A DNA stretch of 64,000 bases, taken from Nitrososphaerota archaeon (GTDB lineage: Archaea; Thermoproteota; Nitrososphaeria; Nitrososphaerales; CADDZS01). The stretch covers positions 68,533 to 132,532 of the forward strand of contig JAJPHP010000060.1 in assembly GCA_021325255.1 (NCBI GenBank), given 5' to 3'. A program made the translations under genes and the position numbers. The notes under the pieces are model-generated. The model worked only from the letters and a program-made list of their open reading frames with translations. It had not been told where the DNA came from and did no database searches. Shown one piece after another: positions 24,903 through 34,005 of the stretch (its first letter is position 1; each line of letters starts with the position of its first letter).

Positions 24903-24987
24903 CGTTTCCCGCTTTATATAGCAAAATAGCACCGTTACGTACCCCCCTCTAGGGGGGTACCCCCTCGCTTTCTCGACAATTGTCGAG
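24903..24987 (-). promoter_or_regulatory. Double-palindrome promoter module, copy 2
   Basis: Minus-strand reading: a perfect palindrome TTCTCGACAATTGTCGAGAA (24970-24989 including flanks), 11 nt, a palindrome at 24939-24960 with arms GTACCCCCC and GGGGGGTAC, 18 nt, TATA box TATATAAAG (24920-24912), then GCGGGAAACGG to 24903. Order, spacings and sequence match copy 1 at 2814-2897. It points left toward the surface-protein gene, but about 340 nt upstream of its ATG and upstream of that gene's own promoter, so it may drive a separate short transcript. Confidence 0.75.
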
Positions 24988-25009
24988 AAGCTGTATGACG
25001 TGGTTTAAG

Positions 25010-29577: not shown

Positions 29578-29740
29578 GCCGGGGTTGAGCAATCTGGTCG
29601 CTCACCGCGCTCGAGATCTTGCTCTCGAAGGAATCTTTGAGAGCAGTAGAGTTTGAATTGGGCTAAGAATTGGACTAGATCCGTGTACAAGATACGCGGC
29701 GCCCCTCTGGGGTATGTGGGTTCAAATCCCACCTCCGGCG
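29578..29740 (+). tRNA. tRNA-Ser (anticodon CGA) with 78-nt intron
   Basis: Acceptor stem GCCGGGG (29578-29584) pairs with CTCCGGC (29733-29739). D-stem GAGC/GCTC. Anticodon stem CCGCG (29605-29609) pairs with CGCGG (29695-29699). The loop reads C-T-CGA-G before the intron and A after it, giving anticodon CGA at 29612-29614 (serine, codon UCG). The long variable arm (GCCCC...GGGGT) and discriminator G at 29740 fit tRNA-Ser. The intron is 29616-29693, at the canonical 37/38 site; ATCTTG at its start pairs with CAAGAT at its end, the expected bulge-helix-bulge helix, and it contains an internal GCTCTC/GAGAGC hairpin. CCA is not encoded in full. Confidence 0.88.
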
Positions 29741-29779
29741 CCTTATCCCATGGATTCAAATCCTCACCTTTTACATAGC

Positions 29780-30197
29780 ATGGACAAGGGGAATGATAGC
29801 ACTAAAACAGACATACACGTCTACGCAAGGAAACTCCAAAGAGAGATAGTGTTGTTGGCAAAGCAGTCGTTTTCAATGAAGGAACGCCAACAAGAGATAC
29901 GTCCACTTTCTGGAGGCGCAAGGCCTCAACAAAGGGAAAATCGCGAAGGCAATCTATCAATTTCGGACAGTTCGCAATCATATGCACTGCGACCTCTCCA
30001 AGTCTAAGAAGAGCTCCATGGAGAATCTAGTAATCTGGATAAGCAACGAGAATTATACAGCATGGACAAAGTCCAACGCCAAGTGGTGGCTCAAGAGTTT
30101 CTAGCGTTGGCTCCAGTTCAAGAAGTACACCTGCCCGTTTCCCGAGGAGGTCGTTTGGATTTCGACGCGAATCAAGAGGAACGAGCAGACCGAACCA
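29780..30197 (+). pseudogene. Decayed, truncated tyrosine recombinase (integrase), N-terminal domain only
   Basis: Two reading frames, joined by a frameshift near 29900-29907, encode one continuous core-binding domain of the XerC/D-type archaeal integrases: MDKGNDSTKTDIHVYARKLQ, then FLEAQGLNKGKIAKAIYQFR, ENLVIWISNENYTAWTKSNA, KWWLKSF, a TAG stop at 30102-30104 where an aromatic codon is expected, and RWLQFKKY, CPFPEEVVWISTRIKRNEQ. The match ends there; the catalytic domain (Arg-His-Arg-Tyr) is absent, replaced by the promoter region of the next gene. It begins 40 nt after a tRNA-Ser, the usual target of such enzymes. Clear relic of an integrated element. Confidence 0.8.
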
Positions 30198-30283
30198 AGC
30201 AGAGAAAGCAACAATCATGCAAACCCACTTCGATCTCAAATGATTTGGCGAATTGCATTTACCTTAATAGCGGCCCTTTACTT

Positions 30284-31327
30284 ATGGGTGTGCGGGCTCG
30301 CCAAAAGGGTTTGAAGGAATCGGGGAAATTCGTAAGCGACAGGGCAAAATTACTTCTGAAGCTTGCCGTTCCATTTCTGGGAGACAATCTTCCCAAAATG
30401 GAATATGGGGCATACACTTTGTTGAAAATACTTTGCGTGAACTACTATGCAGGAATTTTCACACGAATTGCAAAGGGACCTAATGCAAACATAGCGGGCT
30501 ATGATGGCGCTGTGTATATTGACCTCTTTGCTGGCCCTGGCTTAGTGAAGATTGAAGAGACTGGAGATGTTATCGTCGGTTCACCAATCGCAGTTGCCAC
30601 TTCGAGTACCCCCTTCGATTATTCCTTCTTTGTTGAAATCGATTCCGAGAGAGGAAAAGCACTTGGAGAAAGAATGAGCAAGGTACTTACCAAGGATAAG
30701 TATGAGATAATTCCAGAGGATTGCAATCTAGCTATCGACTACATTGTCCAGGAGATAAAGAAACGTTTCAGAAAGCCAGTGGTATTCGCTTTCATCGATC
30801 CGGAAGGAATGGAGATAAAATGGAGGACAGTCTGTGCGATAAGCTCAGCTTTTCGAAGCTCCGACTTTATGATCAATGTCAGCAGCGGTGCAGCGCGAGT
30901 AGCTGGCAGAATGAAAAGTAAGAATAGCTCAAAGTTTCATGATCGACCTATCTTCGAAGACTTCTTTCAAAACGAGAAAGCTGAGGACATTCTTCTGAGA
31001 TTAAACGCAGGACAGAAGGTCAATGACATATACGAACAGGCAGTTCGTGGGACATTGGGTCGTCCAAGAGGAAAGACTATTCCAATAAGAGACAGAGGGG
31101 GCTCTGTAATGTATAACATTCTCGCGTACACTAGGGAGAGTGCGAGAGGTAGCCGGTGGGCAAATACGTTCTTCACGTTGGAACAGGAATTAAAGGGCAT
31201 GGACAGTGATGAGGTGAGACACATCTTGGATGTTCTACAGAAGAGAGCAGGGACACTTGATTTTTCTTTAGCGAGTCCCCAAGAGAGCGCGCAACCAGCT
31301 ACATCGCCAGCGAGAGGATTACTGTAA
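30284..31327 (+). CDS. tcmP: Three-Cys-motif partner protein TcmP
   Basis: 347 aa from ATG 30284, which sits about 20-25 nt below a TATA-like TTTACCTTAATAG (leaderless). YIDLFAGPGLVKI (78-90) resembles the SAM-binding start of a methyltransferase-like fold; FFVEIDSERGKAL and VVFAFIDPEGMEIKW follow. These blocks and the neighbour identify TcmP, a family named for recurrent pairing with a three-cysteine-motif partner. No biochemical activity is established for the family. The partner here is the radical SAM gene 88 nt downstream. AT content is higher than in the flanking core genes, in keeping with the mobile-element setting beside the integrase relic. Confidence 0.85.
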   Translation: MGVRARQKGLKESGKFVSDRAKLLLKLAVPFLGDNLPKMEYGAYTLLKILCVNYYAGIFTRIAKGPNANIAGYDGAVYIDLFAGPGLVKIEETGDVIVGSPIAVATSSTPFDYSFFVEIDSERGKALGERMSKVLTKDKYEIIPEDCNLAIDYIVQEIKKRFRKPVVFAFIDPEGMEIKWRTVCAISSAFRSSDFMINVSSGAARVAGRMKSKNSSKFHDRPIFEDFFQNEKAEDILLRLNAGQKVNDIYEQAVRGTLGRPRGKTIPIRDRGGSVMYNILAYTRESARGSRWANTFFTLEQELKGMDSDEVRHILDVLQKRAGTLDFSLASPQESAQPATSPARGLL

Positions 31328-31337
31328 TATTACAGTA
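31320..31337. promoter_or_regulatory. Perfect 18-nt palindrome TACTGTAATATTACAGTA
   Basis: Overlaps the TcmP stop codon and lies 4-5 nt upstream of a TATA-like CTTATATTA (31342-31350) that would serve the radical SAM gene (ATG 31415). Position and perfect symmetry suggest an operator for a dimeric regulator. Confidence 0.55.
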
Positions 31338-31414
31338 TAGGCTTATATTATTGATTACTACAATTAGACTTTCGTCATGATTGGGTAGTAATAGCGCGGA
31401 AGTAAGAAATCACA

Positions 31415-32461
31415 ATGGAATCGCTCATCCATGATGACAGAAAAATACGAAGTCTTACCGCGCGTGCTTCACAGTTGAAAGACCCCGACAAACAAAGACA
31501 GGCTGCCTTTAAGGCGTGGCATACCATACGGCAAAAACAGCGCGAACGCGCAGCCCAAGGAAGCAAGTCAATGCTTGACTTCATGGGCGAACTCAGGTTG
31601 CTTCCACCCGGAGTCTCGGGCGGCACCTACAAGCTTGCAGCACCATTAGTCAAGCAATCCAAACTTACAAACTTCTCAAAAGGTGGTGTCGGGAAAGAGC
31701 TATCAGACGGCTGGGTCGTGAATTTCTCTATTGGCTGCACTTTCGGATGTAGATTCTGCTACGTTGACGCGATTCATAAGAAGTTCAGTTTCTTGCGAGC
31801 AGGAAGCATTGTGTACAACGATTGGGGCGACTACTTTGCAGTTCCTGAAAATCTCTCGGAACTTATCGAGAAGACACCATGGGAAAAATGGAAAGGCCAG
31901 GAGATCATGCTCTCTTCAACTCACGATCCATATCTTCCGCATCTGAACGGATGGGCCAGAAAGATTCTGGAGGCTTCCCTACCTCATGGTGTCAAATTCT
32001 GCATACAAACACGCTCTCCATTAGTTGAGAGAGATTTTGATATCATTGAACAATACAGAAAGCAGGTCCGTCTCCAAGTTTCAATTGCGACCATGAACGA
32101 GGTGTTGAGCCGATTAGTAGAACCTCGCGTAGTCACTCCCAAGAGAAGGATGCAGGTGCTCAAGAGAGCCAAGGAACTTGGATTAAGGACAGGCATAATT
32201 GTGGCACCAGTCTTCCCTCCGACTGAGCAGCGGCCTGATGTCAAGAAGGATCTTGAGATGATTGCCGATTGCCTATCAGACTTCAAACCTGATTACATCT
32301 ATGGTGAATCTCTGCATGTCCGAGGGATTAACATTGCATACATCGAGAAGGCCGTAGGAGAGAAGCTTGTTCTCGATGGTTTCGACGAGAAGGCCGAAGC
32401 GATGTTCCATGATTCTTTGAAGAGAAAAGGTCTGAAAGGTCGCTGGTGGCGAGAGTATTAG
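31415..32461 (+). CDS. Radical SAM protein (three-Cys-motif partner of TcmP)
   Basis: 348 aa. CTFGCRFCYVD carries Cys108, Cys112 and Cys115, the CxxxCxxC that binds the 4Fe-4S cluster and SAM. Downstream motifs IMLSSTHDPYLPHL and KFCIQTRSPLVERDFDII, VSIATMN, and RMQVLKRAKELGLRTGIIVA fit the SplB-like/DUF5131 branch, whose members include phage-borne proteins paired with TcmP. The N-terminal 50 residues are basic and could contact nucleic acid. ATG 31415 follows a TATA-like box and palindrome. The substrate is unknown; a nucleic acid or base modification is the usual suggestion for this branch. Confidence 0.85.
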   Translation: MESLIHDDRKIRSLTARASQLKDPDKQRQAAFKAWHTIRQKQRERAAQGSKSMLDFMGELRLLPPGVSGGTYKLAAPLVKQSKLTNFSKGGVGKELSDGWVVNFSIGCTFGCRFCYVDAIHKKFSFLRAGSIVYNDWGDYFAVPENLSELIEKTPWEKWKGQEIMLSSTHDPYLPHLNGWARKILEASLPHGVKFCIQTRSPLVERDFDIIEQYRKQVRLQVSIATMNEVLSRLVEPRVVTPKRRMQVLKRAKELGLRTGIIVAPVFPPTEQRPDVKKDLEMIADCLSDFKPDYIYGESLHVRGINIAYIEKAVGEKLVLDGFDEKAEAMFHDSLKRKGLKGRWWREY

Positions 32462-32518
32462 TTTCTATTAGGTAAACATCCCCTTAGAGCCGAAGTAGTT
32501 AGGCGTGTAGAGCAACCA

Positions 32519-32917
32519 ATGACTGTTAAAACGAAGTCTATCTACGATACGAAGCGACGAATCGACGGCTTGAGAGTACTTGTCAGCAGGTTCTATCCTC
32601 GGGGCGTAATGCGTGACCATTTCGATTTGTGGGTCCGGGAAGCTTCGCCCAAACCAGATCTATTGAGAGCGTACAAACATGGCTCAATAAACTGGCCCGA
32701 GTTTGAGAGACGCTTCAGACTACAGCTCAGGACTGCAACAGCCAGTATTTCTGCGCTGAACCAGCTATCGGAGCTATCCACGAAAAGGATCATTACGCTT
32801 CTGTGCTATGAGAAAGAATGGCAAAAATGTCATCGCCAAATTTTGAAGAGGAGGCTAGATGCACTTTCAAAACGTAACAAAAGGCTTGCTGGACAAGACA
32901 CGACAAAGTCACCATAG
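32519..32917 (+). CDS. DUF488 family protein
   Basis: 132 aa: KSIYDTKRRIDGLRVLVSRF, YPRGVMRDHFDLWVREASPK, then a short helical middle and LLCYEKEWQKCHRQILKRRL. The YPRG and LLCYE...CHR motifs with two cysteines are the DUF488 hallmark; the family has a rhodanese-like/nucleotide-related fold with unproven function. It is the third plus-strand gene of the TcmP-radical SAM group, 57 nt after the radical SAM stop. A Lys/Arg-rich C-terminal tail may contact nucleic acid. Confidence 0.85.
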   Translation: MTVKTKSIYDTKRRIDGLRVLVSRFYPRGVMRDHFDLWVREASPKPDLLRAYKHGSINWPEFERRFRLQLRTATASISALNQLSELSTKRIITLLCYEKEWQKCHRQILKRRLDALSKRNKRLAGQDTTKSP

Positions 32918-33041
32918 CTCCCGATCCGCTATGATCATGCGCGCAACGTTCTAAGATTAATTCGTACGCGTGAATTCTGTGCTGAACGAGGACGTTGCAA
33001 GTCTTCTCGACCATCAAGCAGTCAAAAAGACTGACGGCAAG

Positions 33042-33179
33042 TCATTTGCCGACACCTTCCTCCCGTTGGAGATTGATGATCTTGTCCCTCCACGTTTTCA
33101 GATACTCGCTCTTTTCCTTTGTCTCGTATTTTCTGGACCGCATGCAATCAGGAGCAGCTGCACACTCTTCTAAGCCCAT
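33042..33179 (-). CDS. Small protein, 45 aa, possible remnant
   Basis: ATG 33179 to TGA 33042. MGLEECAAAPDCMRSRKYET followed by a helical Lys/Glu-rich part (SEYLKTWRDKIINLQREEGV). Composition is more protein-like than the antisense frames. It may be a genuine small protein of the integrated element or a fragment of a lost gene. Confidence 0.3.
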   Translation of the reverse strand: MGLEECAAAPDCMRSRKYETKEKSEYLKTWRDKIINLQREEGVGK

Positions 33180-33822
33180 TCTTTCCTACTCTGGCGATAC
33201 TGGTACACTCATTCTATCTCGACACCTTTTTTCCCTCTTCAAAGAAGGGATTTGTTTTGCCGATCGAACGATACATCGCTTCACGAAGGACGTTTTGGCT
33301 TGGATCCACCAGTAGAAATCAGTCCGACTGGGTCATGTTCGAACCCATCTGGCAGCTGTGTTTCAGTTTCAGGCCAGTGCGAGAAACAATCCGCTCGCTC
33401 AACTTCTGCACCTTCTCGTACACCTCAAACTCATCTTTCCGTTTGCGATTAATAGCCTACACTTTTTGGCAAGGAATGACTAAAAGGAAAACAGGACGGC
33501 ATTTGCCCTAACTAGTAAACGCTCACTCGGCTATTCTCAAACTTGAGAAACGTGGCCCACTCACGAGGGAGATGGCCCGAAGGACTTGCTATTATCATTT
33601 CGCTCTTTAAGGCGGCAGCTTTCTCTTATCTGCGCTCATTAACACTCAATGTGCGGGCGTGACTTAGACGCAGTGGAATGAATTCTTAAAACTCCGTCCC
33701 GCGCGGGACCGCCGCGGCCATGCCTGTCTCAGTAGCCGACTCCGATGTGGCACCGAGGGCTGCTGGATGCCTTTTGATAGACGTATCAGCCGCTTGAAGA
33801 ATTATTTCAAGGATTCACACTG

Positions 33823-33870
33823 GAGGGTCTTAATTCCGTCCCCTAAAACACAAGACTTAGGACGGCCCTC
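33823..33870. ncRNA. Nested stem-loop, candidate structured RNA or terminator
   Basis: Outer stem GAGGG (33823-33827)/CCCTC (33866-33870) and inner stem CCGTCC (33836-33841)/GGACGG (33860-33865), with further TAA/TTA pairing inside. No T-tract follows, so a simple terminator is not the best reading. No known RNA family recognised. Confidence 0.35.
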
Positions 33871-34005
33871 GATATTCCTACATATTCTCTGGATATCCGG
33901 GAATATCCGAAGATTCTCTTTGCTGAATCGTAAAGGAGCTTAGAAATTGATGAGCAAGCCCTGAACCAGAATGGATTTTAAAGCGAGTATTGGAACCACG
34001 GCCTC

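Follow-up and report, generated by a model that had tools for sequence, protein, structure and literature searches.

Related systems and overview of the locus

TcmP proteins (family TIGR04474) are known to occur beside a Gp37/Gp68-type partner with three cysteines, and a Deinococcus plasmid carries genes annotated as such a pair. The locus described here lies in a stretch of 64,000 nucleotides from a Nitrososphaerota archaeon (assembly GCA_021325255.1, contig JAJPHP010000060.1, positions 68,533 to 132,532), hereafter called the window. In it, genes for TcmP, a radical S-adenosylmethionine (SAM) protein and a DUF488 protein follow a tRNA-Ser gene and a likely integrase relic (Table 1). The window TcmP belongs to the same family, scoring over the cut-off, and the two-gene layout is the same; the partner, however, is a radical SAM protein of the spore photoproduct lyase (SPL) type, encoded 87 bp downstream and with the three-cysteine motif present. 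In our estimate, there is about an even chance that the locus is what remains of an integrative element in the tRNA-Ser gene, of which the TcmP-SPL-type radical SAM pair and DUF488 are the surviving cargo, serving nucleic-acid modification in conflicts. The pair itself is probably a nucleic-acid-modifying, defence-type one of the known kind, TcmP with a three-cysteine partner, in an SPL-type form.

Other described systems resemble parts of the locus. The radical SAM protein is like SPL in fold and in cluster motif, but is 13% identical to it, has an invariant cysteine of its own (C196) and is paired with TcmP. It is related to the Radical SAM mobile pair protein B (TIGR04470, E 1e-20), a family named on many plasmids, but it scores 74.4 bits against a cut-off of 410 and the window has no second radical SAM gene; several haloarchaeal loci do combine two radical SAM genes with tcmP. 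A literature search for "radical SAM mobile pair" and related phrases found nothing. The window TcmP matches the models of the PADLOC candidate PDC-M41A (E 7e-20), whereas a PADLOC search with the radical SAM protein found no model at E 0.01; DUF488 weakly matches the candidates PDC-M45 and PDC-M19. As to the setting, the main text of PMC6563490 describes integrated elements of thaumarchaea that likewise occupy the 3' part of tRNA genes and carry restriction genes as cargo: 39 of the 68 mapped elements lie in tRNA genes, 10 of which contain introns. The window island differs in having lost the integrase core, and the terms "radical SAM" and "three-Cys" are absent from that main text.

The three genes and their products

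The three genes were initially annotated as co-directional and following the tRNA, and this was borne out: all three open reading frames (ORFs) are open, on the plus strand and matched by family models, with 57 bp between the radical SAM and DUF488 genes. TcmP adopts the class I methyltransferase fold in its AF2 model (pLDDT 82), and its sequence contains the motifs DLFAGPG and DPEGM. In a structure comparison of the model, its nearest folds were Trm1 and RlmJ. Sequence searches against solved structures gave weak matches only (best E 0.014), and the matches in a viral structure library were also weak, the best three being RNA or capping methyltransferases. TcmP thus resembles a nucleic-acid methyltransferase, and methyltransferase activity is predicted from fold and motifs. 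No tested function of TcmP was found in the literature searched.

In the radical SAM protein, the predicted cluster ligands are C108, C112 and C115 (C108-x3-C112-x2-C115), and C196 is invariant in the family. Its predicted fold is like that of SPL. A search of its profile against solved structures by sequence returned nothing at E 0.01 and SPL alone at E about 1. At the segment expected to hold the hydrogen-atom donor of SPL (C140 in the solved enzyme; about 163-175 here by interpolation, columns 163-172 being counted), a cysteine is present in 1 of 27 sequences while Ser168 is present in all 27.

The DUF488 protein, which we take to be a predicted cysteine-dependent enzyme of the rhodanese/phosphatase superfamily, has conserved LLCYE and CHR motifs, with LLC and CHR invariant in 15 aligned sequences. 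Solved structures gave three weak matches, the best being a chimeric construct (E 0.003). A shorter version of 109 aa (P0143), listed with a 132,558-base contig, is identical to the start of the window protein and lacks the tail. Among the paper titles and abstract openings covered by the literature search, none dealt with DUF488 function, and one abstract contained the term. A 2023 paper on the rhodanese superfamily reportedly covers DUF488 and may already describe such neighbourhoods, hence no priority is claimed.

Table 1. Features of the locus, in window coordinates.
Feature	Position	Strand	Basis and details
tRNA-Ser(CGA)	29578-29742	+	Intron-aware ARAGORN; exon 1 29578-29615, 78-nt intron 29616-29693, exon 2 29694-29742
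Likely relic of an integrase (archaeal tyrosine recombinase), N-terminal part	29714-30260 (outer limits approximate)	+	tblastn with the recombinase of locus L019, and frame reading
TcmP, 347 aa	30284-31327	+	TIGR04474, 87.9 bits (cut-off 53)
18-bp perfect palindrome TACTGTAATATTACAGTA, operator-like	31320-31337		Followed closely by a TATA-like stretch at 31343-31352
SPL-type radical SAM protein, 348 aa	31415-32461	+	PF04055, E 1e-19; CxxxCxxC
DUF488-N3a protein, 132 aa	32519-32917	+	PF22751 "active DUF488-N3", 95.2 bits (cut-off 27); PF04343

Recurrence of the TcmP-radical SAM pair

A set of radical SAM loci (L001 to L078) was gathered with a radical SAM profile and comprised 77 genome loci and one virus locus; some genomes occur twice (for example L004/L009), and the duplicate loci L083 to L095 were excluded. 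Contig ends truncate many of the loci, which makes misses upper bounds, and the TcmP, DUF488 and integrase models were built by iteration on the counted loci themselves. TcmP was encoded within 1.5 kb of the radical SAM gene at 49 of the 78 loci, namely 16 of the 21 close archaeal loci and 33 of the 57 others, which are mostly from Verrucomicrobia and haloarchaea and include two other bacteria and one virus.

Loci anchored on TcmP were taken from Verrucomicrobia (30 loci of 35 matches, two of them below cut-off) and Thermoplasmata (19 loci, two below cut-off); four of these 49 coincide with radical SAM loci (L132, L144, L176 and L179). A radical-SAM-like partner was present at 24 of the 30 and 15 of the 19 loci, respectively, and three further Verrucomicrobia loci had a cysteine-rich neighbour with a CxKVSPxCxxCYAE-like motif. 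The recurrence of TcmP with a three-cysteine partner, as initially annotated, is therefore upheld by both sets. Partner scores fell into a strong, SPL-type group (6 of 24 in Verrucomicrobia, 8 of 15 in Thermoplasmata) and a weak group (18 of 24 and 7 of 15). Since the annotated Gp37/Gp68 partner on the Deinococcus plasmid scores in the weak group, this group as a whole was read as probably Gp37/Gp68-type. The window pair belongs to the SPL-type version.

Some loci showed other arrangements. In genome G002 (L162:1329-5648), an SPL-type radical SAM gene lies between two tcmP genes, and a weak-group, Gp37/Gp68-like protein (ATGCTKVS) is encoded convergently to the second. In ten haloarchaeal loci (L029, L042, L050, L052, L056, L057, L059, L065, L069 and L070), TcmP is accompanied by two neighbouring radical SAM genes in varying orientations. 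A Marsarchaeota pair (L003:9872-11889) has its radical SAM frame in three pieces and a stop in TcmP, which may reflect a decayed pair or recoding.

Linkage of DUF488 to the pair

The search for DUF488 genes covered an author-selected 50 of the 77 genome loci; 33 of these 50 genomes contained such genes (57 matches). The gene stands next to the radical SAM gene at two of the 78 loci, L016 (15 bp) and L073 (4 bp), in each case upstream and on the same strand. One of these is from an archaeon and the other from a bacterium; their gene order is opposite to that of the window and no TcmP was found at either. The chance expectation for DUF488 within 500 bp of the radical SAM gene is 0.019 in the 50 genomes, and the probability of two or more cases is about 2e-4. 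TcmP, radical SAM and DUF488 were all adjacent at none of the 78 other radical SAM loci, and none of the 49 TcmP-anchored loci had DUF488 within about 1.5 kb. In L001, the radical SAM protein of which is 75% identical to that of the window, the pair has the window's order with no DUF488 in the 5.5 kb downstream, and the DUF488 gene of that genome sits on another contig.

Genome G058 has a close DUF488 homologue at a distance of 6.6 kb from TcmP, on the far side of restriction genes; its two pieces show 54% and 66% identity, it is frameshifted and its CHR motif reads CDR. Separately, a radical SAM protein (P0004) and a DUF488 protein (P0163) from Nitrososphaerales are each listed with a 33,943-base contig, very likely the same one. 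On the linkage counts, DUF488 was rejected as an obligate third gene. The initial annotation had made it a fixed third part of one self-contained cassette; no conserved linkage of DUF488 to TcmP was found, which by that annotation's own standard largely tells against the three-gene module, and the counts do not show the window genes to be one cassette, although adjacency of DUF488 to the radical SAM gene alone does exceed chance. DUF488 is probably accessory cargo and an occasional companion.

Integration site and mobility

The tRNA-Ser(CGA) gene was found by ARAGORN in intron-aware mode, and was detected neither by ARAGORN without introns nor by Rfam at gathering thresholds. It was presumably the integration target. 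The open frame of the relic starts within the tRNA 3' end, with a frame change and an in-frame stop further on. The intact tyrosine recombinase of L019, an archaeal locus which itself bears a TcmP-radical SAM pair, matches the relic with 24% identity (E 3.6e-6 in a search over 95 loci; E 2e-7 against the window alone, aligned part 29880-30197). The recombinase aligns by its N-terminal part only, and the catalytic C-terminal domain was not seen. The relic has no Pfam integrase domain, and its PHROGs matches are weak and unrelated. Judged from this one alignment and its position, the relic is likely an integrase, in agreement with the initial annotation of a decayed integrase next to a tRNA.

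No second copy of the attachment (att) site above the shuffled background was found within the window, and the right end of the island is undefined for this reason. Repeats of the tRNA end of at least 15 bases were also not found within L004, L007, L011 or L018. The open frame in the tRNA 3' end might reflect the split of an SSV-type (suicidal) integrase gene at the att site, but a second att copy was not found. Comparison with an empty site could not be read because the downstream metallo-beta-lactamase gene was matched at E 1e-40 in only one of 201 sampled genomes of the order, with 38% identity. About 1.1 kb without a recognised gene (32918-34005) separates DUF488 from this metallo-beta-lactamase family gene. 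ORFs of seven relatives gave no match there, and the segment is perhaps the decayed right part of the island.

Distribution also points to mobility. At E 1e-20, the radical SAM protein was matched in 5 of the 201 sampled genomes, one match being distant (30% identity) and another a fragment at a contig end. An integrase is present at 8 of the 21 close archaeal radical SAM loci and at 11 of the 57 others. It overlaps the 3' end of tRNA-Ser in L004 and of tRNA-Pro in L007; about 30 bp separate its end from tRNA-Ser in L018. Moreover, haloarchaeal plasmids bear TcmP with one or two radical SAM genes. ORF301 of Acidianus two-tailed virus (L157:4950-5855) is a radical SAM protein 54.6% identical to that of the window, with an adjoining transposase gene; no TcmP was found beside it. 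Taken together, the pair looks real and mobile. Of the self-contained integrative module proposed at first, the integrative setting thus agrees with the sporadic occurrence and the integrases, but self-containment is not supported.

The palindrome and the radical SAM promoter

The palindrome TACTGTAATATTACAGTA is not striking by itself, since the window contains eight perfect palindromes of at least 14 bp, one of them of 20 bp. The latter, TTCTCGACAATTGTCGAGAA (24970-24989), is the longest in the window. What makes TACTGTAATATTACAGTA credible is that its position is kept in two relatives: with a single mismatch, its 14-bp core also precedes the radical SAM gene of L001 and that of L094, followed each time by an A+T-rich, TATA-like stretch. 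L094 combines a radical SAM fragment 79% identical to the window protein with a TcmP only 27% identical, so that the promoter element moves with the radical SAM gene, and TcmP has been exchanged. Allowing up to two mismatches, the core was not found near the radical SAM gene in L002 to L021 (20 close archaeal loci) or in the virus, so that the element is limited to near relatives; the single two-mismatch copy, in L004, is 5 kb away from the gene.

Regulation of the whole cassette by the palindrome is disfavoured, because the element precedes the radical SAM gene even where TcmP is only 27% identical, although no more than three loci carry it. The perfect 18-bp palindrome and its conservation stand, but as part of the radical SAM promoter. 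A sigma-70 promoter scan gave a count near expectation with a model not meant for archaea.

Defence context

Several pair loci adjoin defence-type genes. In G058, TcmP and a partial radical SAM gene, whose product is 79% identical to the window protein, have as neighbours a type III-like methylase and a restriction endonuclease of the BPTD_3080 family (over cut-off). Large type IIG-like enzymes are encoded near the pair in L007, L008 and L050, an HKD+Snf2 protein in L065 and a PDC-S28 match in L056. Among the ten proteins scanned, those of L001, L059 and L018 gave no match, and no defence gene was identified next to the pair in the window.

A PADLOC scan at E 1e-8 covered 125 neighbour ORFs (121 of 247 listed and four of L161), leaving out L003, L012, L013, L016, L020, L021, L078 and the haloarchaeal L052, L063, L064, L069, L070 and L075, as well as integrases and a few other ORFs. 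Over these ORFs, 217 PADLOC families were matched, compared with 10 over 99 control ORFs beside DUF488 genes; the figures count families and not proteins, and the 217 is inflated by large methylases with hits to numerous models. The control is not neutral either: its ORFs lie beside DUF488 genes, PDC-M45 and PDC-M19 account for most of its matches, and its proteins are shorter and from different taxa. The enrichment of defence-type genes beside the pair is therefore suggestive only. In L096 to L125, genes beside DUF488 elsewhere match PDC-M45 and PDC-M19, which hints at candidate defence contexts belonging to DUF488 itself.

In the expression table of one paper, TcmP (SMa2243) stands directly after the Hna defence gene, and another paper lists TcmP in prophages. 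The initial annotation of a defence-like module keeps the support of the neighbouring genes, with an imperfect control, while protection against phages or viruses is a reading from context only.

Possible function and alternative explanations

If the locus is the remnant of an integrative element carrying a nucleic-acid modification pair, the radical SAM protein, with its SPL-like fold and its extra invariant C196, would generate a 5'-deoxyadenosyl radical at a nucleic-acid substrate. TcmP, which has a Trm1-like motif IV, might methylate the same substrate or a nearby base. The joint modification could be used in conflicts between mobile elements and hosts, either marking self or altering a target to make invaders fail. 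DUF488 would then not be an essential subunit but an optional helper, or a neighbouring gene of that island.

That DUF488 is instead a functional third subunit, which might act on the modified base by, for instance, sulfur or phosphate chemistry and is often lost or placed elsewhere, seems unlikely. Its adjacency to the radical SAM gene in two of 50 genomes, an archaeon and a bacterium, against about 0.02 expected would fit such a module, as would the close homologue 6.6 kb from TcmP in G058 and the listing of P0004 and P0163 with the 33,943-base contig. Both adjacent cases (L016 and L073) are however without TcmP, none of the 49 TcmP loci has DUF488 within about 1.5 kb, L001 has the pair without DUF488 downstream and its DUF488 on another contig, and the G058 homologue is frameshifted with CDR in place of CHR. 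A repair function carried by mobile elements, with the SPL-like protein mending a DNA or RNA lesion and TcmP aiding or regulating it, also appears rather unlikely: the interpolated segment of the SPL catalytic cysteine has a cysteine in one of 27 sequences and Ser168 in all, and the neighbours include restriction systems. To our knowledge, SPL repair involves no methyltransferase partner.

The genes might also be neutral passengers of a decaying island at a tRNA hotspot, which we consider improbable. The integrase is reduced to a fragment, in the Marsarchaeota pair of L003 the radical SAM frame is broken and TcmP contains a stop, and the window TcmP is 61% identical to that of L001 in protein but 67% in DNA. 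On the other hand, none of the three window ORFs is interrupted, the palindrome of the promoter is conserved, and the radical SAM protein is 75% identical to that of L001 with 71% identity in DNA. Protein identity exceeding DNA identity indicates purifying selection on the radical SAM gene. Biosynthesis of a peptide or small molecule is very improbable, as the top-ranked folds are those of nucleic-acid enzymes (precursor peptides were not searched for) and restriction systems lie nearby. A reading broader than that of a modification pair on an integrative remnant is offered tentatively: TcmP and the SPL-type radical SAM protein may form a mobile system for nucleic-acid modification, as yet uncharacterised, in archaea and bacteria. 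It would be carried on integrative elements, plasmids and a virus (radical SAM alone), act beside restriction systems, swap TcmP while keeping the radical SAM gene and its promoter, and sometimes recruit DUF488.

The SPL-type partner ties TcmP to a radical enzyme that acts on nucleic acid and is structurally understood. Restriction systems as neighbours and the occurrence in a virus provide a testable setting for the pair. If the pair indeed makes a new base modification, the arms race of archaea with their mobile elements would gain a radical chemistry.

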